Origin: Oscillospiraceae bacterium
GTDB taxonomy: Bacteria; Bacillota; Clostridia; Oscillospirales; Oscillospiraceae
Assembly (NCBI GenBank): GCA_022804995.1
Contig: JAAWUC010000008.1
Span: 1 to 36,629, forward strand
DNA length: 36,629 nt
Reading direction: 5' to 3'
Both the position numbers and the translations under genes were made by a program. The notes beneath the pieces were generated by a model. The model searched no databases and was not told where the DNA came from. It worked only from the letters and a program-made list of their open reading frames with translations. Below are positions 2,912 through 23,566 of this stretch, one piece after another. The first letter of the stretch is position 1. Each line of letters begins with the position of its first letter.

Positions 2912-4681
2912 TTACTTCTTCAGGTTGTTCTCCAGGGTGTCCAGCTGCTGGAGCAGCTCCTTGGGCAGCTTATCGCCGAACTTGGCGTAGTACTCCCGGA
3001 TGCCCTTAGCCTCCTCGGCCCACAGCTCTTTGTCCACGCCCAGCAGGCCCTCGACAGTCTCCTTGCTGACGTCCAGACCTTCCAGGTTGATGTCCTCCGC
3101 CTTGGGCTGGAAGCCGATGGCGGTGTCCACAGCGCTAGTCTCGTCAAAGGCGCGCTTCATGATCCACTCCAGCACCCGCAGGTTGTCGCCGAAGCCGGGC
3201 CAAATGAAGTGGCCCTCGTCATCAGTGCGGAACCAGTTGACGTTGAAGATCTTGGGCAGCTTGTCCGCGCCGACCTTCTTGCCCATGTCCAGCCAGTGCT
3301 GCCAGTAGTCGCCCATGTGGTAGCCGCAGAAGGGCAGCATGGCCATGGGGTCGCGGCGCACGACGCCCACGGCGCCGGCGGCGGCGGCGGTGGTCTCCGA
3401 GGCCATGATGGAGCCGACGAACACGCCGTGCTCCCAATCCCGGGCCTGGTACACCAGGGGAGCGGTCTTGGCCCGGCGTCCGCCGAAGACAATGGCGCTC
3501 AGGGGCACGCCCTTGGGGTTCTCAAACTCGGGGGAGATGCAGGGGCAGTTGATGGCGGGGGCGGTGAAGCGGGAGTTGGGGTGCGCGCCCTTCTCGGTGC
3601 TCTCCTTGCCGTTCCAGGGGTTGCCCTTCCAGTCCACGGCGTGCTCCGGGGGATTCTTGTCCAGGCCCTCCCACCACACGGTGTTGTCGTCCAGGTTGTG
3701 GACCACGTTGGTAAAGATAGTGCCCTTCTGAGTGGAGGCCAGGGCGTTGGGGTTGCTCTTGACGTTGGTGCCGGGGGCCACGCCGAAGAAGCCGTACTCG
3801 GGGTTCATGGCCCACAGGCGGCCGTCCTCGCCCACGCGGATCCAGGCGATGTCGTCGCCCACGCACCAGACCTTCCAGCCCTTCTCGCGGTAAGCCTCGG
3901 GGGGAATGAGCATGGCCAGGTTGGTCTTGCCGCAGGCGGAGGGGAAGGCGGCGGCCAGGTAGCGGACCTCGCCGGCGGGGTTCTGGAGGCCCAGAATCAG
4001 CATATGCTCGGCCATCCAGCCCTGCTCGTGGCCCAGGTGGGAGGCGATGCGCAGGGCGAAGCACTTCTTGCCCAGCAGCACGTTTCCGCCGTAGCCGGAG
4101 TTGACGGACATGATGGTGTTGTCCTCGGGGAAGTGGACAATATAGCGGTTCTCGGGGTCGATGTCCGCCTTGGCATGGAGGCCCTTGATGAAGTCGTCGC
4201 CCAGCTTCTCAGCCACGGCGGTGCCCACCCGGGTCATGATGCACATGTTGAGCACCACGTAGATGGAATCGGTCAGCTCAATGCCGTACTTGGCAAAGGG
4301 GGATCCCACCACGCCCATGGAGTAGGGAATGACGTACATGGTACGGCCCTTCATGGCGCCGGTGTAGAGCTTATTGAGCTTGGCATACATCTCTTTGGGG
4401 TCCATCCAGTTGTTGGTGGGGCCGGCGTCCTCCTTCTTGCGGCAGCAGATGAAGGTCCGGTCCTCTACGCGGGCCACGTCGTTGACGGCGGTGCGGTGGA
4501 GGTAGCAGCCGGGCAGCTTCTCCTGGTTGAGCTGCTCGATCTCGCCGGTGGAACAGGCCTCGGCCCGCAGGGCGTCGATCTGCTCCTGGGAGCCGTCAAT
4601 CCAGACGATTTTGTCGGGCTGGGTCATCTTGGCCATCTCGTCGATCCAGGCGAGAACGGCCTTATTGCTTGTGAGAGCCAT
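2912..4681 (-). CDS. pckG: Phosphoenolpyruvate carboxykinase (GTP)
   Basis: 589 aa from MALTSNKAVLAWIDEM; FPSACGKTNLAML kinase motif; RBS aggagg; the longer ORF start at 5365 is an artefact. Confidence 0.96.
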   Translation of the reverse strand: MALTSNKAVLAWIDEMAKMTQPDKIVWIDGSQEQIDALRAEACSTGEIEQLNQEKLPGCYLHRTAVNDVARVEDRTFICCRKKEDAGPTNNWMDPKEMYAKLNKLYTGAMKGRTMYVIPYSMGVVGSPFAKYGIELTDSIYVVLNMCIMTRVGTAVAEKLGDDFIKGLHAKADIDPENRYIVHFPEDNTIMSVNSGYGGNVLLGKKCFALRIASHLGHEQGWMAEHMLILGLQNPAGEVRYLAAAFPSACGKTNLAMLIPPEAYREKGWKVWCVGDDIAWIRVGEDGRLWAMNPEYGFFGVAPGTNVKSNPNALASTQKGTIFTNVVHNLDDNTVWWEGLDKNPPEHAVDWKGNPWNGKESTEKGAHPNSRFTAPAINCPCISPEFENPKGVPLSAIVFGGRRAKTAPLVYQARDWEHGVFVGSIMASETTAAAAGAVGVVRRDPMAMLPFCGYHMGDYWQHWLDMGKKVGADKLPKIFNVNWFRTDDEGHFIWPGFGDNLRVLEWIMKRAFDETSAVDTAIGFQPKAEDINLEGLDVSKETVEGLLGVDKELWAEEAKGIREYYAKFGDKLPKELLQQLDTLENNLKK

Positions 4682-4837
4682 GGTAGGTTTCCTCCTGTAT
4701 TTGAATTTTTCAGAAAGCCAACGTTTCCTGACTACCATGATACTAAAATCTTTTGGAAAATGCAAGGGGGTTGGAAAAAAAACCACAGAAAAATAGCCGG
4801 GTCCGCCGGGCGGAAGCCTTGACGCCGGGCGGGCCGC

Positions 4838-4866
4838 TTTACAAGCGGCGTGAAAACTGCTATACT
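4838..4866 (+). promoter_or_regulatory. Putative sigma-A promoter of the cobI/hem operon
   Basis: TTTACA-N17-TATACT; the -35 box lies inside the inverted repeat gccgctttacaagcggc. Confidence 0.65.
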
Positions 4867-4900
4867 GTGCGAAAATGGGACAGTAAAGGAGAGCATCCAT

Positions 4901-5593
4901 ATGACAAACGGAAAACTCACCGGCGTGGGCGTAGGGCCCGGGGATCCGGAGCTTTTGACCCTCAAGGCGGTCCGCGTCCTGCGGGAGGCGGACGTTGTCG
5001 CCGTGCCGGATAAGGGCGCGGGGGAGCGGACCGCCTTGTCCATCGCGGCGGCGCACATCCAGGACAAGCCCATCCTCTCCTGCGTTACCCCCATGGTCCG
5101 GGACAAGGCCGCCCTGGCGGAGGCCCACAAGGCCGTTGCGGACAGGCTCTGCGCCCTGCTGGAGGAGGGAAAGCGGGTGGCCTTCATCACCCTGGGGGAC
5201 CCCTCCATCTACTCCACCTATCTCTACGTCCACCGGCTGGTGCTGGCGCGGGGATATGCGGCGGAGCTGGTGCCGGGAGTGCCCTCCTTCTGCGCCGCCG
5301 CCGCGAGTCTGAACATGGGGCTGTGCGAGGGCAGTGAGCGGCTGCTCATCGTCCCTGCCTCCCACCGGGATATTTCCGACTGTCTGGACACCGACGCCAA
5401 CCTGGTGTTCATGAAGGCCGGGAAGGACCTGGGGGCCCTGCGGGACCGGTTGGCCCGGGAGAGGCTTTTGGAGAACGCCTCCCTGGCGGCCAACTGCGGC
5501 ATGGAGGGGGAGGTCCTCTGCCCCCGGCTGTCGGAGCTGGAGGAGGAGACGGGGTATTTTTCCCTGGTCGTCGTCAAGCGGGGGGAGAAATGA
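4901..5593 (+). CDS. cobI: Precorrin-2 C(20)-methyltransferase
   Basis: GVGVGPGDPELLTLKAVRVLREADVV and ITLGDPSIYSTY motifs of the tetrapyrrole methylase family; start ATG 4901 chosen over ORF start 4850. Confidence 0.9.
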   Translation: MTNGKLTGVGVGPGDPELLTLKAVRVLREADVVAVPDKGAGERTALSIAAAHIQDKPILSCVTPMVRDKAALAEAHKAVADRLCALLEEGKRVAFITLGDPSIYSTYLYVHRLVLARGYAAELVPGVPSFCAAAASLNMGLCEGSERLLIVPASHRDISDCLDTDANLVFMKAGKDLGALRDRLARERLLENASLAANCGMEGEVLCPRLSELEEETGYFSLVVVKRGEK

Positions 5594-10708: not shown

Positions 10709-10769
10709 AATTTTCTCCCGGTTCCCGGCGCGCTGTTGACGGACGAGGAAATTTCTGCTACGATTTTCC

Positions 10770-10858
10770 CTGCGGGGATAAAAACACGTCCCGGTCGGTA
10801 GTCCGGGAGCAGCCTTTGCTGTCAGTAACCTGCCTCCTTGGTTGTCCGTTCTCCGCGG
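10770..10858 (+). ncRNA. Candidate yjdF-motif riboswitch upstream of yjdF
   Basis: Closing stem 10770-10778/10850-10858 (CUGCGGGGA/UCUCCGCGG with G-U pairs); hairpins CCCGG-UCGGUAGU-CCGGG (10790-10807), GCAGC-CUUU-GCUGU (10809-10822), AACC...GGUU (10827-10843); sits directly upstream of a YjdF/DUF2992 gene. Confidence 0.75.
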
Positions 10859-10884
10859 AAACCATTTTAAGGAGGAAGCTTTCA

Positions 10885-11304
10885 ATGGACACCGCAAAAG
10901 CGCGCCTGACCGTACTCTTTGACCCGCCCTTCTGGGTGGGCCTCTTTGAGCGGGAGAGCGGAGGCCGGTATGAGGCCTGCAAACACACCTTCGGGGCGGA
11001 GCCCCGGGACGCCGAGGTCTACGCCCTGGTGCTGGAGCAGTACCACCGGCTGGCGTTCAGCCCGGCCCTGGAGGCAGCGCCCGGGGAGGACCGCAGCGTC
11101 AGCCCCAAACGGGCCCAGCGCCTGGCCCGCCGCCAGACACAGCCGGCAGGCATCGGCACCAAGGCCCAGCAGGCCCTCCAGCTCCAGCGGGAGCAGAGCA
11201 GGACAGACCGGCAGGCCCTGTCGAGAGAGCAGCGGGAGGCCGAGGAGGAGCGCCGGTACCAGCTCCGCCAGGAGAAGCGAAGGAAAAAGCATAGGGGGCG
11301 TTAG
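10885..11304 (+). CDS. yjdF: YjdF family protein (DUF2992)
   Basis: MDTAKARLTVLFDPPFWVGLFERESGGRYEACKHTFGAEPRDAEVY N-terminus; basic Q/R-rich C-terminus; RBS aaggagg. Confidence 0.9.
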   Translation: MDTAKARLTVLFDPPFWVGLFERESGGRYEACKHTFGAEPRDAEVYALVLEQYHRLAFSPALEAAPGEDRSVSPKRAQRLARRQTQPAGIGTKAQQALQLQREQSRTDRQALSREQREAEEERRYQLRQEKRRKKHRGR

Positions 11305-16454: not shown

Positions 16455-16483
16455 TTGAATCTCCGGAGGACATATGGTATACT
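16455..16483 (+). promoter_or_regulatory. Sigma-A promoter of the OLE RNA
   Basis: TTGAAT-N17-TATACT; predicted start near 16490, the first base of the closing helix. Confidence 0.8.
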
Positions 16484-16489
16484 GTCCCC

Positions 16490-17144
16490 CGTCAAACGGC
16501 GGCGCAGTATCCTAGTCAGATCTGCCGTCTCTGAAGAAGGGCCTAAAAATCCTTTTAAGGGCATAGCGATGAAACCTCTGGTGCCTGCTTCTTACGCCCA
16601 GTTTGGGGTGGGTGCTGGATGGAAAGCGCGGCGAACCCCGCGCTTGCGGCCGTAGGGCGTTCCTCAATGGCATGAGGAAGCCGACCCTGCGGGCGTGGAG
16701 ACCTGTTCACGTGCATGGGCGTACTCCCTTTGTGGTACTCCGACCTGTGTACGGCTCAGGTGAGAAACCTGTATTGCGGTGCTACCCGGCCTTGAGCCGT
16801 GAACGCTGTGTGCAGATGTAGCCTGCCTTGCGTGGGTATGGCGGATAGGGGACCCACCCCGTTCCTCCCCGGCCAGGGAGGGGCGCGGGATCGCCCCTTG
16901 AAACCATGGCTGCAAAAGAGGCTAGGAGGCGGTTTGACTGTGGTGGAAAACACCTAGGCTGTCGTCATTGGGCGGACAGGGGATTGCAGTGCGGACTAAG
17001 TGGCAGTCGGGCAGCGGGTCAGGCAACAACCCGCCGGAGGGCTGAAAGGGAAACCACCTGACCGGCAACGGGAGGCGCTTTCCGGGGAAATCCAGCCCGT
17101 ACCTAAGCCGTAAGATTTACTCTGGGCGCTGCCGCCGTTTGGCG
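16490..17144 (+). ncRNA. ole: OLE RNA (Ornate Large Extremophilic)
   Basis: ~655 nt with no credible ORF; terminal helix CGTCAAACGGCGGC (16490-16503) / GCCGCCGTTTGGCG (17131-17144), 14 bp with one G-U, followed by TTTTT; internal helices include ACGGCTCA/TGAGCCGT (16751-16758/16793-16800), AAGCGCGG/CCGCGCTT, CAGGT-GAGAA-ACCTG, CCTCCC/GGGAGG; followed by oapA-dxs-tlyA-nadK-argR-recN, the known OLE gene neighbourhood. Confidence 0.92.
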
Positions 17145-17202
17145 TTTTTGAAAATCAGATTCCCAATCATCCTATCATAACATAAAGAGAGGCGGTTTCT
17201 GC

Positions 17203-17763
17203 TTGGACATAGGGCAGGGAAAGAAACAGGAAAAAAAGAAGCCGGGCCGGATGCGGTGGGCTGTACAGGTGTTTTTCATATCCGTGGTGCTCTCCGCCGT
17301 GCTGTCGCTGACGTCGGAGGAGGCGCTGGACGGGGCGGGGCTGCCCATCGCGTTCGCGGTGCTGGCGGCTTTCATCCTGCTGGGCATTATTTTCGACATC
17401 ATCGGCGTGGCGGTAACGGCGGCGGACGAGCGGCCCTTCCACTCCATGGCGGCCCACAAGACTCCCGGCGCCCGGGAGGCTCTGGGCCTCATCCGCAGGG
17501 CCAATAAGGTTTCCAGCTTCTGCAACGACGTGGTGGGCGACATCTGCGGCATCATCTCCGGATCCACTGCGGCTATCATCGTCACCCGGCTCCAGGAGGC
17601 GCTGAGCCTGCGCTCCATCTTTTTCTCCCTGGCGGTGACGGCCCTGGTCTCGGGCCTGACCATCGGGGGTAAGGCCATCGGCAAAACCTTCGCCATTGAC
17701 AAGAGCACCGCCGTCCTCCAGCTGGTGGGACGGGTTATGCACGTATTTTCCAGGAAGAAATAG
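17203..17763 (+). CDS. oapA: OLE-associated membrane protein OapA
   Basis: 186 aa, multiple TM segments, RANKVSSFCNDVVGDICGIISGSTAAIIV conserved segment, directly downstream of OLE; TTG start. Confidence 0.9.
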   Translation: MDIGQGKKQEKKKPGRMRWAVQVFFISVVLSAVLSLTSEEALDGAGLPIAFAVLAAFILLGIIFDIIGVAVTAADERPFHSMAAHKTPGAREALGLIRRANKVSSFCNDVVGDICGIISGSTAAIIVTRLQEALSLRSIFFSLAVTALVSGLTIGGKAIGKTFAIDKSTAVLQLVGRVMHVFSRKK

Positions 17764-17899: not shown

Positions 17900-19738
17900 T
17901 TGCTGTTGGATCGTATCTCGTCCCCTGCGGACGTAAAGACGCTGCCGGCCCGCGAGCTGCCGGCGCTGTGCGGGGAGCTGCGCCGGGAGCTGGTGGAGCG
18001 GGTGGCCCGCACGGGGGGGCATCTGGCCTCCAATCTGGGCGCGGTGGAGCTGACGGTAGCCATCCACCGGATATACGACACCTCCCGCGACCGGCTGGTC
18101 TTTGACGTGGGCCATCAGTGCTACGTCCACAAGATCCTGACCGGCCGCCGGGAGCTGTTTTCAACTTTGCGGCAGCTGGGAGGGCTGGGGGGCTTTCCCA
18201 AGCCGTCGGAGAGCGTCCACGACGCCTTTGTGGCCGGGCACGCCTCCAACGCCGTGTCGGTGGCCCTGGGCATGGCCCGGGCCAGGACCCTCCGGGGAGA
18301 GGACTACGGCGTGATCGCCCTGCTGGGGGACGGGGCCCTCACCGGAGGACTGGCCTACGAGGGGCTCAGCGACGCCGGGGACTCCGGGGAGCCCCTGGTG
18401 GTGGTGCTCAACGACAACGGGATGTCTATCGACCCCAACGTGGGGGGCGTGGCCCTGCATCTCAGCCGCCTGCGGCTGCGGCCGGGCTACTACCGGTTCA
18501 AAAAGGGGTACCACGCCGTTATGAAGCACCTGCCGGGGGGCAAAAAGCTGTATCGCTTCAACCACCGGCTGAAAACCAACCTGAAAAAAGCCCTGTACCC
18601 CTGCTCCATGTTCGAGGACATGGGCTTTACCTACCTGGGCCCGGTGGACGGGCACAACGTGGAGCAGCTGTGTACCACTCTGGCCTGGGCCCGGGAGCTG
18701 AACTGCCCCGTCCTGGTCCATGTCCGCACCCGGAAGGGGAAGGGCTATGCCCCCGCCGAGGACCGGCCGGAGCGGTGCCACGGCGTCGCGCCCTTTGACC
18801 CCGAGCAGGGCCCCGCCGAGAAGCGGACGCCGGATTTCTCCTATGTGCTGGGCCACGAGCTGGTGGAGCTGGCGGGGGAGAACAAGCGCATCTGCGCCAT
18901 TACCGCCGCCATGGCCGAGGGCACCGGGCTCCAGGAGTTCGCCTCTGCGTGGCCCAAGCGGTTTTTCGACGTGGGCATCGCCGAGGGCCACGCCGTGGCC
19001 ATGGCCGCCGGGATGGCCAAGCAGGGGATGCTGCCGGTCTTTGCCGTGTACTCCAGCTTTTTGCAGCGGGGGTACGATATGCTCCTCCATGACGTGGCCC
19101 TCCAGGGGCTCCATGTGGTGCTGGCGGTGGACCGGGCGGGGCTGGTGGGGGCCGACGGCCCCACCCACCACGGCTGTCAGGACGTGGGCTATCTCACCCA
19201 GATTCCCGGTATGACCGTGCTGTGTCCGGCGGACTTTGACGAGCTCCGCGCCATGCTCCGGGCCGCGCTGGCCATGGAGGGCCCCGCTGCGGTCCGCTAC
19301 CCCAGAGGGGGCGGCATTGAGGGCTGTCCGCCCTGGAATGGGGAGAGCGCGTCGGTACTCCGGGAGGGGCGGGACGCGACCCTGGTGTCCTACGGAACGC
19401 TGACGGAGGAGCTTTTGAAGGCCGCGGAGATTTTAAGGGGCCGGGGGATGGAGGCGGAGGTGCTCAAGCTCCACCGCATTGCCCCCCTGGACCCGGAGCC
19501 GGTGCTGGAGTCCGTAAGAAGGACCGGCAGGCTGCTGGTGCTGGAGGACTGCCTGGAGGCGGGCTCCGTCGGCCAGCGGCTGGCGGCGGAGATCGCCTGC
19601 CGGGGGATACGATTGAAAAAATTGTGCCTGAAGAATCTGGGCCGGGCCTTCGCCCCTCAGGGGAAGGTGCCGGAGCTGCGGAGGCTGCTGGGATTGGATG
19701 GAGAGAGCGTGGCAGCGCTGTGGGGAGATAATGTATGA
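17900..19738 (+). CDS. dxs: 1-deoxy-D-xylulose-5-phosphate synthase
   Basis: LVFDVGHQCYVHKILTGRR, GDGALTGGLAYEGL, HVRTRKGKGYAPAE, HHGCQDVGYL. Confidence 0.97.
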   Translation: MLLDRISSPADVKTLPARELPALCGELRRELVERVARTGGHLASNLGAVELTVAIHRIYDTSRDRLVFDVGHQCYVHKILTGRRELFSTLRQLGGLGGFPKPSESVHDAFVAGHASNAVSVALGMARARTLRGEDYGVIALLGDGALTGGLAYEGLSDAGDSGEPLVVVLNDNGMSIDPNVGGVALHLSRLRLRPGYYRFKKGYHAVMKHLPGGKKLYRFNHRLKTNLKKALYPCSMFEDMGFTYLGPVDGHNVEQLCTTLAWARELNCPVLVHVRTRKGKGYAPAEDRPERCHGVAPFDPEQGPAEKRTPDFSYVLGHELVELAGENKRICAITAAMAEGTGLQEFASAWPKRFFDVGIAEGHAVAMAAGMAKQGMLPVFAVYSSFLQRGYDMLLHDVALQGLHVVLAVDRAGLVGADGPTHHGCQDVGYLTQIPGMTVLCPADFDELRAMLRAALAMEGPAAVRYPRGGGIEGCPPWNGESASVLREGRDATLVSYGTLTEELLKAAEILRGRGMEAEVLKLHRIAPLDPEPVLESVRRTGRLLVLEDCLEAGSVGQRLAAEIACRGIRLKKLCLKNLGRAFAPQGKVPELRRLLGLDGESVAALWGDNV

Positions 19739-20538
19739 GCAAGAAGATAAGGCTGGACATCCTGCTGGTGGAGCGGGGGCTACAGGAGAGCCGGCAGCGG
19801 GCCCAGGCTGTCATTATGAGCGGGCAGGTCTTCGTGAACGGACAGCGGGTGGACAAGCCGGGGACGGCCGTGGACCGGTCGGCCCAGATTGAAATTCGCG
19901 GCGAGACCCTCCGCTATGTCAGCCGGGGGGGCCTCAAGCTGGAGAAGGCCATGGCCCTTTGGCCCATCGCCCTGGAGGGCGCCGTGTGCATGGACGTGGG
20001 GGCCTCCACCGGGGGCTTCACCGACTGTATGCTCCAGAACGGAGCGAAAAAGGTCTACGCCGTGGACGTGGGCTACGGCCAGCTGGCCTGGAAGCTCCGC
20101 AGCGATGAGCGGGTGGTGTGCCTGGAGCGGACCAACGCCCGGTATCTCAGCCATGAGCTCATCCCGGAGGAGCCGGATTTCTCCAGCGTGGACGTGAGCT
20201 TTATCTCGCTGAAGCTGATCCTCCCCGCCATCGCCGTGGTCCTGCGGGACGGGGGGCAGGCGGTCTGCCTCGTCAAGCCCCAGTTCGAGGCCGGGCGGGA
20301 GAAGGTGGGCAAGAAGGGCGTGGTCCGGGACCCCGCCGTCCACCTGGAGGTGCTGGAGCGGTTTTTGGAGCACGCGGAGGAGAGCGGCTTCGCCGTCTTG
20401 GATCTGACCTTTTCCCCCATCCGGGGCCCGGAGGGGAATATTGAGTACCTGGGCTGGCTGGAGAAGGGGCCCGGGGCGGAACAGAATTTTGATTTGCGGG
20501 CGCTGGTGGACGCATCCCACGGGGCGCTGGAGGAGTAG
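19735..20538 (+). CDS. tlyA: TlyA family rRNA (cytidine-2'-O)-methyltransferase
   Basis: KIRLDILLVERGLQESRQRAQAVIMSGQVFVNGQRVDKPG S4 domain and MDVGASTGGFTDCMLQNGAKKVYAVDVGYGQL FtsJ motif. Confidence 0.96.
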   Translation: MSKKIRLDILLVERGLQESRQRAQAVIMSGQVFVNGQRVDKPGTAVDRSAQIEIRGETLRYVSRGGLKLEKAMALWPIALEGAVCMDVGASTGGFTDCMLQNGAKKVYAVDVGYGQLAWKLRSDERVVCLERTNARYLSHELIPEEPDFSSVDVSFISLKLILPAIAVVLRDGGQAVCLVKPQFEAGREKVGKKGVVRDPAVHLEVLERFLEHAEESGFAVLDLTFSPIRGPEGNIEYLGWLEKGPGAEQNFDLRALVDASHGALEE

Positions 20539-20540
20539 AG

Positions 20541-21422
20541 ATGGGCTTGAAGCGGGTGATCCTCTGCCCCAACCCCTACCGGGACAAGGGGCTGGCCGCC
20601 GCCAAGGAGGCGGACGAAATACTGCGGGGCGCGGGGCTGGAGACGGTCTACTGCCTGCCCTTCAAGCCGGAGGGAGGGGACGCCCAGTTCGGCGTTCCCT
20701 GCCGCCCCCTCCAGCAGGAGCTGCGCCGGAGCGATCTGGTGGTGGCCTTCGGCGGGGACGGGACCATCCTCCACCTAGCCCGGGGCGTCTCCATGCGGGG
20801 GATCCCCCTGCTGGGGGTGAACCTGGGGAGCCTGGGGTTCATGAGCGAGGTGGAGGTGGGGGAGATGCACCTGCTGAAAAACCTGGCCCGGGGGCAGTTC
20901 CGCAGGGAGAAGCGGATGATGCTGGATGTGTCGGTGGTCCGGGACAACTGGACGGTCTACACCAACAGCGCCCTCAACGACGCGGTCATCTGCAAGGGGG
21001 CCATGGCCCGGGTCATCCGCCTCCAGGTGGACACCGGAGAGGACCACCTGGGCCTCTTCTCCGGGGACGGGGTGGTGGTGGCCACCCCCACCGGGTCCAC
21101 GGGCTACTCCCTGTCCGCCGGCGGGCCCATCGTGGAGCCCACGGCCCAGAACTTTGTCATCAGCCCCATCTGCGCCCACACGGTGTTCTCCAAGTCCTTT
21201 GTTCTCTCCGCCGCCGGGACGGTGACGGTGGCCCCGGCGGATAAAAACCGGAAGCAGGTCTATCTGTCCGTGGACGGGGGGAAGGCGTTCTCCCTGCGGG
21301 CGGGGGACAAGGTCCGCATCAGCCGGTCCCGGTACGAGACAGAGCTGGTGCGGCTGACGGACAGGAGCATCTATGAGGTGCTGCGCACAAAAATGACGGG
21401 AGGCATCGGCCATGAAGAATGA
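20541..21422 (+). CDS. nadK: NAD(+) kinase
   Basis: VVAFGGDGTILHLAR, LGVNLGSLGFMSE, TPTGSTGYSLSAGGPIV. Confidence 0.97.
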   Translation: MGLKRVILCPNPYRDKGLAAAKEADEILRGAGLETVYCLPFKPEGGDAQFGVPCRPLQQELRRSDLVVAFGGDGTILHLARGVSMRGIPLLGVNLGSLGFMSEVEVGEMHLLKNLARGQFRREKRMMLDVSVVRDNWTVYTNSALNDAVICKGAMARVIRLQVDTGEDHLGLFSGDGVVVATPTGSTGYSLSAGGPIVEPTAQNFVISPICAHTVFSKSFVLSAAGTVTVAPADKNRKQVYLSVDGGKAFSLRAGDKVRISRSRYETELVRLTDRSIYEVLRTKMTGGIGHEE

Positions 21423-21864
21423 GAGACAGTCGAAGATCCTGGAGATCATCGAATCGGAGCCCATCGACACCCAGGAGCAGCTCCAGCAGCGGCTCCAGGC
21501 CCAAGGCATTGCCTGCACCCAGGCCACCATCTCCCGGGATATCAAGCAGCTCCATCTGGTGAAGGAGCCCATGGGCCAGGGGCGGTACCGGTACGCCGTG
21601 TCCGTCCAGCGCAGCCGCCTGAACGTGGCGGACAAGCTGCGCACCATCTTCCGGGAGAGCATTGTCAGCGTGGACTCGGCCCAGAACATCGTGGTGGTCA
21701 AGACCATGGCCGGCCTGGCCAACGCCGCCGGCGCGGCCCTGGACAGCATGAGCATCCCCACTATGGTGGGGAGCCTGGCGGGGGACGACACGGCCATCCT
21801 CATCATGCGGGACGGGGAGTCGGCCCGGGTCCTGTGCGAGGAGATCCACGAGATGCTGAACTAG
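21412..21864 (+). CDS. argR: Arginine repressor
   Basis: MKNERQSKILEIIESEPIDTQEQLQQRLQAQGIACTQATISRDIKQLHLVK; GSLAGDDTAILIMRD. Confidence 0.96.
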   Translation: MKNERQSKILEIIESEPIDTQEQLQQRLQAQGIACTQATISRDIKQLHLVKEPMGQGRYRYAVSVQRSRLNVADKLRTIFRESIVSVDSAQNIVVVKTMAGLANAAGAALDSMSIPTMVGSLAGDDTAILIMRDGESARVLCEEIHEMLN

Positions 21865-21883
21865 CGGAGAGAGAGGTGGGAGA

Positions 21884-23566
21884 ATGCTTCAGCTTCTGCA
21901 CATTGAGAACATCGCGGTTATCGAGGAGGCGGACATCACCTTCGACCGGGGCTTCAACGCCCTGACCGGCGAGACCGGCGCGGGCAAGAGCATCGTCATC
22001 GACGCCATGGGGGCGGTGCTGGGCCAGCGGACGAGCCGGGACCTCATCCGCACCGGCGCGGCCAAGGCCTTCGTCAGCGCGGTGTTTACGGACGTGCCGC
22101 CCCTTAGGGAGCTGGCGGAGTGCGGCCTGGAGGCGGAGGACGGAGAACTGCTGCTCCAGCGGGAGATCTACGCCGACGGGAAGAACGCCTGCCGCGTGGG
22201 GGGGAGGCCGGTGACGGTGGCCCAGCTGCGCCGGGTGGGCCAGCAGCTGCTGAACATCCACGGCCAGCACGACGGACAGCTGCTGCTGGACGAGGAGCGC
22301 CACCTGGGCTATCTGGACAGCTACGGCGGGGTGGAGGAGCCTCTGACGGCCTACCTTGCCCGCTATGAGGCCATGGAGGCCACCAGCCGGAAAATGCGCT
22401 CTTTAGAGATGGACGAGGCGGAGAAGGCCCGGCGGGTGGACAGCCTCCAGTTCCAGATCGGGGAGCTGGAGCGGGCGGAGCTGAAGATCGGCGAGGAGGA
22501 GGCTCTTCTCCGGCGGCGGGACATCCTGCGCAACAGTGAGAAGTTTATGTCTGCGGTCCAGGGGGCTCTGTACTGCCTGAGCGGCGGGGACGAGGGCGGC
22601 AGCGGGGCCGTAGGCCTGCTGGGGGAGGCGGAGCGGTCGGTGGCCTCGGTGCGGGGGCTGGGGGAGCAGTTCGCCCAGCTGGCCGGGCGGCTGGAGGGTC
22701 TGCGCTCGGAGAGCTACGACGTGGCGGAGACGCTGCGGGATCTGGCCGGGGACCTGGAGTTCAGCCCCGGGGAGCTCGACGAGCTGGAGAGCCGGGCGGA
22801 CCAGCTCTACCGTCTGAAGAAAAAGTACGGCGAGACCGAGGAGGACATGATCGCCTATCTGGAGAAGTGCCGGGGGGAGCTGGACGAGATCGCCTTCGCC
22901 TCCGACACCCTGGCCCGGCTGGAGAAGACCTTGGCTAAGGAGCGCGCCCAGGCCATGAAGGCGGCGAAGGCCCTCTCCGAGAAGCGGAGGGCGGCGGCGA
23001 AGGATCTGGAGGGCCGGATTCAGGAGGAGCTGCGGCAGCTGGATATGCCCAAGGTCCGCTTCTCCATCCGGTTCACGGAGCGGGAGCCGGACAGGACCGG
23101 CATCGACGAGGTCCGCTTTCTCATGTCCGCCAACGTGGGGGAGGAGCTCAAGCCCATCAACAAGGTGGCCTCCGGCGGCGAGCTGGCCCGGATTATGCTG
23201 GCGCTGAAAAATGTGCTGGCGGAGAACGAGGCCATCGGCACCCTGGTCTTTGACGAGGTGGACACCGGCGTCAGCGGCCGGGCCGCCCAGAAGGTGGCGG
23301 AGAAGCTGGCCCAGGTCAGCCGGAGCAAGCAGGTGCTGTGCGTGACCCACCTGCCCCAGCTGGCGGCTATGGCGGACACCCACTTCTCCGTGGAGAAGGG
23401 CGAGCGGAAGGGGAGGACCTTCACCAGCGTGGAGAACCTGGATCTGGAGCGGCGGAAGGGGGAGCTGGCCCGCCTCACCGGCGGGGAGAAGCCCACCGCC
23501 GCCATGCTGGCCGGGGCGGAGGAGCTCATCGCCTCCGCGGCGGCGTATAAAAAGGGACTCGGATAA
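21884..23566 (+). CDS. recN: DNA repair protein RecN
   Basis: MLQLLHIENIAVIEEADITFDRGFNALTGETGAGKSIVIDAM; LVFDEVDTGVSGRAAQKVAEKL. Confidence 0.97.
   Translation: MLQLLHIENIAVIEEADITFDRGFNALTGETGAGKSIVIDAMGAVLGQRTSRDLIRTGAAKAFVSAVFTDVPPLRELAECGLEAEDGELLLQREIYADGKNACRVGGRPVTVAQLRRVGQQLLNIHGQHDGQLLLDEERHLGYLDSYGGVEEPLTAYLARYEAMEATSRKMRSLEMDEAEKARRVDSLQFQIGELERAELKIGEEEALLRRRDILRNSEKFMSAVQGALYCLSGGDEGGSGAVGLLGEAERSVASVRGLGEQFAQLAGRLEGLRSESYDVAETLRDLAGDLEFSPGELDELESRADQLYRLKKKYGETEEDMIAYLEKCRGELDEIAFASDTLARLEKTLAKERAQAMKAAKALSEKRRAAAKDLEGRIQEELRQLDMPKVRFSIRFTEREPDRTGIDEVRFLMSANVGEELKPINKVASGGELARIMLALKNVLAENEAIGTLVFDEVDTGVSGRAAQKVAEKLAQVSRSKQVLCVTHLPQLAAMADTHFSVEKGERKGRTFTSVENLDLERRKGELARLTGGEKPTAAMLAGAEELIASAAAYKKGLG

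Follow-up and report, generated by a model that had tools for sequence, protein, structure and literature searches.

Here we describe a full-length OLE RNA from an Oscillospiraceae MAG and, with it, a group of OLE RNAs in this family that carry an added, covarying helix in the J5/6 junction of domain 1, have replaced the junction strand from which k-turn 1a is built and keep the core of k-turn 1b without exception. OLE RNA is of a known kind, and what is added here is structure, namely the J5/6 helix. We are confident that the region encodes the core of a membrane RNP, dimeric by homology, with OapC most likely placed on k-turn 1b. The window referred to below is the whole 36,629-nt stretch of DNA that was analysed.

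Scanning the window with all Rfam families produced two matches, one of which was OLE (RF01071) at 16483-17151 on the forward strand, with 389.6 bits (E 3.6e-111) over model positions 1-616 of 616, more than 300 bits above the family cut-off of 50 bits. Among the 249 highly conserved (upper-case) Rfam consensus positions the window sequence is identical at 222, and standard pairs occur at 139 of the 159 Rfam pairs. The earlier note, made from the sequence alone, had proposed a full-length OLE at 16490-17144, a claim that would fall if the OLE model gave no significant match; the match supports it, and the proposed span is correct to within 7 nt when set against the model boundaries, the end of the promoter-like site and the two P1 strands (Table 1). 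Its description of a gap holding only spurious ORFs in a high-GC, gut-type Firmicute also stands: the host belongs to the Oscillospiraceae, and a coding gene or artefact was rejected as an explanation of the gap, as the ORFs are antisense or spurious and none has a Pfam match. The window OLE is an ordinary and seemingly intact example of an RNP class already known.

Table 1. Coordinates of features of the OLE locus in the window.
Feature	Position	Strand	Evidence
Promoter-like site, TTGAAT-17-TATACT	16455..16483	+	9/12 consensus matches
P1 5' strand, pairs with 17131-17141; unpaired in Rfam structure line	16493..16503	+	duplex; covariation
CCUAAAAAUCC, A-rich loop region of P4	16542..16552	+	dimer contact by homology; kept in 61/62 relatives
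J4a/5 strand of k-turn (C85 = 16567, G89 A90 = 16571-16572)	16566..16573	+	invariant in 100/100 and 70/70
P5 loop CGCCCAG, kissing by homology	16595..16601	+	invariant in 62 sequences
Extra 8-bp hairpin inside J5/6	16624..16645	+	76/100 in Oscillospiraceae-centred set, 0/70 outside
P6 loop AAUGGCAU, kissing by homology	16666..16673	+	nearly invariant in 62 sequences
J6/7 strand of k-turn 1b, GUGGAGAC (G216 A217 G218 = 16698-16700)	16695..16702	+	invariant in 170/170
P9-loop palindrome GGCC, symmetric kissing contact by homology	16871..16874	+	GGCC in segment in 60/62
Region with the two GGCAAC loops, P12.2/P13, OapB site by homology	17022..17069	+	alignment to RF01071
P1 3' strand	17131..17141	+	duplex; covariation
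oapA, membrane partner; starts with TTG, encodes DxxxD motif	17203..17763	+	alignment with relatives; four hydrophobic segments; adjoins OLE in family genomes
dxs, tlyA, NAD kinase, argR, recN; usual OLE neighbourhood	17900..23566	+	NCBIfam matches

A single OLE copy was found genome-wide in the assembly, a MAG that is 89% complete, and a contig of another MAG (JAIEIQ010000115.1) carries an OLE 97-98% identical to it. OLE is present in 43 of 151 genomes of the family and in 117 of 292 in a sample of the class. No OLE was found in the phage records searched; seven IMG/VR contigs matched a 16-base OLE pattern, none of them with an OLE match, and a viral OLE was not retained as a candidate.

The gene order downstream of OLE, given in the earlier note as an OapA-like gene, dxs, tlyA, nadK, argR and recN, was confirmed by OapA alignment and NCBIfam matches. 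The oapA gene begins ∼50 nt downstream of OLE and encodes an OapA-type sequence with a sub-threshold CNNM match and four hydrophobic segments, the number of transmembrane segments expected of an OapA. Its DxxxD motif (D109, D113), which sets OapA apart from CNNM domains (Fernando and Breaker, PMC11332333), is invariant in an alignment of ten relatives. Upstream, a methionine gamma-lyase family gene is transcribed divergently. The downstream order is identical in Pusillibacter faecalis, where the whole OLE-oapA-dxs-tlyA-nadK-argR-recN locus is found on pMM59_01 (NZ_AP023421.1, locus L128, 11987-18949), a 504-kb replicon that is typed as a conjugative plasmid and also carries tyrS and xseA; the replicon could instead be a second chromosome or reflect an assembly issue. 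Elsewhere in the window, a yjdF (azaaromatic) riboswitch (RF01764, 83.4 bits) lies just 5' of a DUF2992/YjdF gene at 10888-11304 (+), the whole spanning 10768-11304 (+). Riboswitch plus YjdF gene is a textbook arrangement.

The remaining protein partners are encoded in the same genome: an OapC/YbxF gene beside rpsL (best PDB match YbxF, E 2e-12), an OapB gene flanked by map and infA (E 1.9e-5 to PDB 7k9b, 'OLE-associated protein B') and bS21. No CNNM/MpfA protein besides OapA was found in this 89% complete MAG, in line with the published MpfA anticorrelation. Across the family, OapA occurs in all 43 OLE-bearing genomes, with one weak extra OapA-like match. Five Butyricicoccus-like loci were suspected of holding OapA without OLE, a suspicion that was dropped for four of the genomes, which have OLE on another contig (L105, L106, L110 and L112 with L129-L132); in these four the usual ole-oapA tandem appears to be broken with both genes kept. 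OLE was not found in the assembly of the fifth (G152), the completeness of which is not established. Two close relatives, G029 and G151, show other departures: in the former (L124, 2312-6062) a lipoprotein gene at 3094-5454, of solute-binding type by eye, separates ole and oapA, and in contig 1 of the latter (L039, L133) the gap between them is ∼5 kb. An in-frame TGA within the OapA match at G020:C21:5901-6434 may be a sequencing error, decay or an alignment that runs past the stop.

As 16483 is the last position of the promoter-like site, transcription of OLE is predicted to start near 16490, just before the P1 5' strand. Among related OLE loci, 60 of 96 have a comparable site upstream, compared with 57 of 480 shuffles. 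At the base of the molecule, RNAalifold recovered P1 and P2 from an alignment of 62 OLEs (A2); both helices are unpaired in the Rfam structure line and have already been named in PMC12265935. In these 62 sequences P1 is 96.7% paired, with four of six counted pairs changed on both sides. When P1, P2 and the J5/6 helix are imposed as a set structure, 97.7% of cells pair and 13 of 22 pairs have changed on both sides; none of the shuffle or slid controls came near these values. The P1 3' strand can alternatively form a short hairpin (CGCC-GTTT-GGCG, then T5, at 17131-17149), and in the window this terminator-like fold and P1 would exclude one another, an arrangement that is not conserved across relatives. 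In the window P1 is followed by U5 and the competing hairpin, but the idea that P1 itself is the stem of an intrinsic terminator with a 600-nt loop was dropped: across loci a U-tract after P1 is only weakly enriched (21/100 against 47/500 control stretches).

The extra J5/6 hairpin, which did not feature in the earlier note and which the Rfam model treats as an insertion, was seen in 41 of the 62 OLEs of alignment A2 and, in the alignment with other families of the class, only within the Oscillospiraceae-centred set. Pairing is standard in 96.4% of cases over its eight pairs, seven of which have changed on both sides; length and loop vary widely among relatives. The helix is strongly clustered and may have a single origin. 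We do not uphold single origin as a fact, since a tree that includes the hairpin columns requires one change (88% bootstrap) and a tree with these columns left out requires three. The clade includes Oscillibacter valericigenes, Sporobacter termitidis and Pusillibacter faecalis. The subtype is not mentioned in the texts of PMC11332333, PMC12265935, PMC12054373, PMC12286853 or PMC9723947 that were available, figures and supplementary alignments aside, and it may already be visible in those figures or alignments.

The position of this helix matters for an existing dispute. The stretch from J4a/5 to J6/7 has been described as adopting three mutually exclusive structures, namely an open-joint P5/P6 form, k-turn 1a, in which J4a/5 meets J5/6 (PMC9723947), and k-turn 1b, in which J4a/5 meets J6/7 and which is the cryo-EM form (PMC12286853). 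The study that names all three judges the bS21 probing of H. halodurans closer to 1a than to 1b (PMC12054373), and biochemistry in that organism favours 1a (PMC9723947, PMC12054373), with OapC and bS21 as switches, as against the 1b of cryo-EM. From the published description we assigned six core nucleotides to k-turn 1b (C85, G89, A90, G216, A217 and G218). None of the six varies across the 170 OLEs compared here, 100 of them Oscillospiraceae-centred and 70 from outside, and they fit the pattern C-bulge-GA against GA-G. In the window, J6/7 GGAG can be drawn facing J4a/5 C...GA. For the 1b core the support is invariance, as distinct from covariation, and helix-bearing OLEs do not conserve the pair that follows in the C helix (84-219).

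The 1a strand, by contrast, differs between the two groups. All 24 helix-less OLEs of the Oscillospiraceae-centred set have U at position 84 and either UUAAGG or UUAAGA in J5/6; outside the family A164 is A in 70/70 and A165 in 63/70. Among the 76 helix-bearing OLEs, A164 has become G in 74 and A165 has become C in 75, and position 84 may be any base. The window accordingly has a hairpin followed by GCGG where 1a would place AAGG opposite J4a/5. As A164 A165 have changed to GC, position 84 has been freed and the hairpin sits between the former UUAAGG strand and P5, a standard k-turn 1a cannot be drawn. We therefore infer that the helix-bearing clade uses k-turn 1b only, and on balance favour the fuller reading that this Oscillospiraceae subtype, with its added domain 1 junction helix, is unable to form 1a and that OapC recognition and function would proceed on 1b alone.

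An opposing explanation is that this is a canonical OLE in which the hairpin is a neutral expansion, looped out when 1a still forms on OapC binding. The wide variation in hairpin length and loop would be expected of such an expansion, 66 of the 76 helix-bearing sequences retain G166, with which C85 is partnered in 1a, and the H. halodurans biochemistry (PMC9723947, PMC12054373) backs 1a; we nevertheless consider this explanation unlikely, though worth keeping in mind, as the two adenines that are so well kept outside the family are GC in nearly all helix-bearing OLEs, G89 would face C instead of A, and the hairpin interrupts continuity with P5 while position 84 was freed simultaneously.

Two further explanations concern the RNA as a whole. 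The element could be chiefly a cis-acting structured leader for the oapA-dxs operon instead of a free RNA, and its promoter-like site of its own and its distance of ∼50 nt from oapA would suit that role. This is very improbable in our view, given that OLE is intact both in the four Butyricicoccus-like genomes where ole and oapA lie on different contigs and in the relative with a protein gene between them, and that in H. halodurans OLE is a separate abundant RNA (PMC9723947). That the locus is a decaying remnant might be suspected from its score, which is below that of many other OLEs of the class (up to 565.5 bits), but lineage insertions partly account for the lower score, 222 of the 249 highly conserved positions are kept, the loops and the k-turn core are intact, and the partner genes are present; the conservation contradicts decay, to which we give practically no credence.

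For how the window OLE might work, the best-supported picture comes from work on H. halodurans and from the cryo-EM structures. Two copies would dimerise through the P4 A-loop (PMC12286853), the P5 and P6 kissing loops (PMC12265935) and the GGCC palindrome of the P9 loop (PMC12286853), contacts that come from cryo-EM and whose loop sequences are all present in the window. OapA would anchor the dimer in the membrane, OapC would bind the k-turn at the P5 base, with bS21 on P6 and OapB on P12.2/P13 (PMC9723947). In this lineage the J5/6 helix would remove the 1a strand, so that OapC most likely recognises the J4a/5-J6/7 form. The particle would help the cell to adapt to stress, a role demonstrated only in Halalkalibacterium halodurans. 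Two relatives depart from the common loops: in an Oscillospiraceae MAG (L099, 2296-2976) the P4 A-loop is altered and GGCC in the P9 loop is replaced by GTAC, which fits a symmetric kissing loop because it is still a palindrome, and in L102 (2226-2862) the P9 tip with the dimer loop is lost and the remainder of OLE is intact.

The P6 helix of H. halodurans contains an exact anti-Shine-Dalgarno mimic, CCUCC (PMC12054373). None of the 100 OLEs of the Oscillospiraceae-centred set has this motif in its P6 3' strand, and we reject general mimicry by exact CCUCC. P6 retains a G-C rich core (GACCC), and loss of CCUCC with this core kept agrees with the finding that mutants in which the mimic is altered and the conserved G-C pairs remain still bind (PMC12054373). 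No 16S match was found in the MAG for a comparison with the 16S tail.

The role of OLE has been a question since 2006. A clade in which the 1a strand is replaced and the 1b core and OapA are kept, and whose member in the window genome also keeps OapC and bS21, amounts to a natural experiment on the k-turn dispute. If our reading is correct, the proposed 1a/1b switch is not universal in how OLE works, and the named species in the clade make the k-turn question testable outside extremophiles.

Compared with the full-length class of RF01071 (H. halodurans, C. acetobutylicum, C. botulinum), the window OLE has in common the full-length match, the conserved loops, the P1-P2 closure, the adjoining oapA and its neighbourhood, and genes for OapB, OapC and bS21; it differs in the extra covarying J5/6 hairpin, the replaced UUAAGG strand, a P6 without the CCUCC mimic, a higher GC content and a host family with many gut bacteria. 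Variants 1 and 2 of OLE, described in PMC11332333 from the TANB77 and RF39 clades, share with it lineage-specific changes in domain 1 and an origin in uncultured gut bacteria. In those variants P7-P9 are shortened or lost and OapB and OapC are often absent, whereas the window OLE gains a J5/6 helix, keeps all partners and has P7, P8 and P9 all present, the loops of P7 and P8 carrying insertions. With respect to the two published k-turns (PMC9723947, PMC12286853, PMC12054373), the J4a/5 strand is common to both and present here, the second strand of 1a in J5/6 is replaced, and that of 1b in J6/7 is intact.
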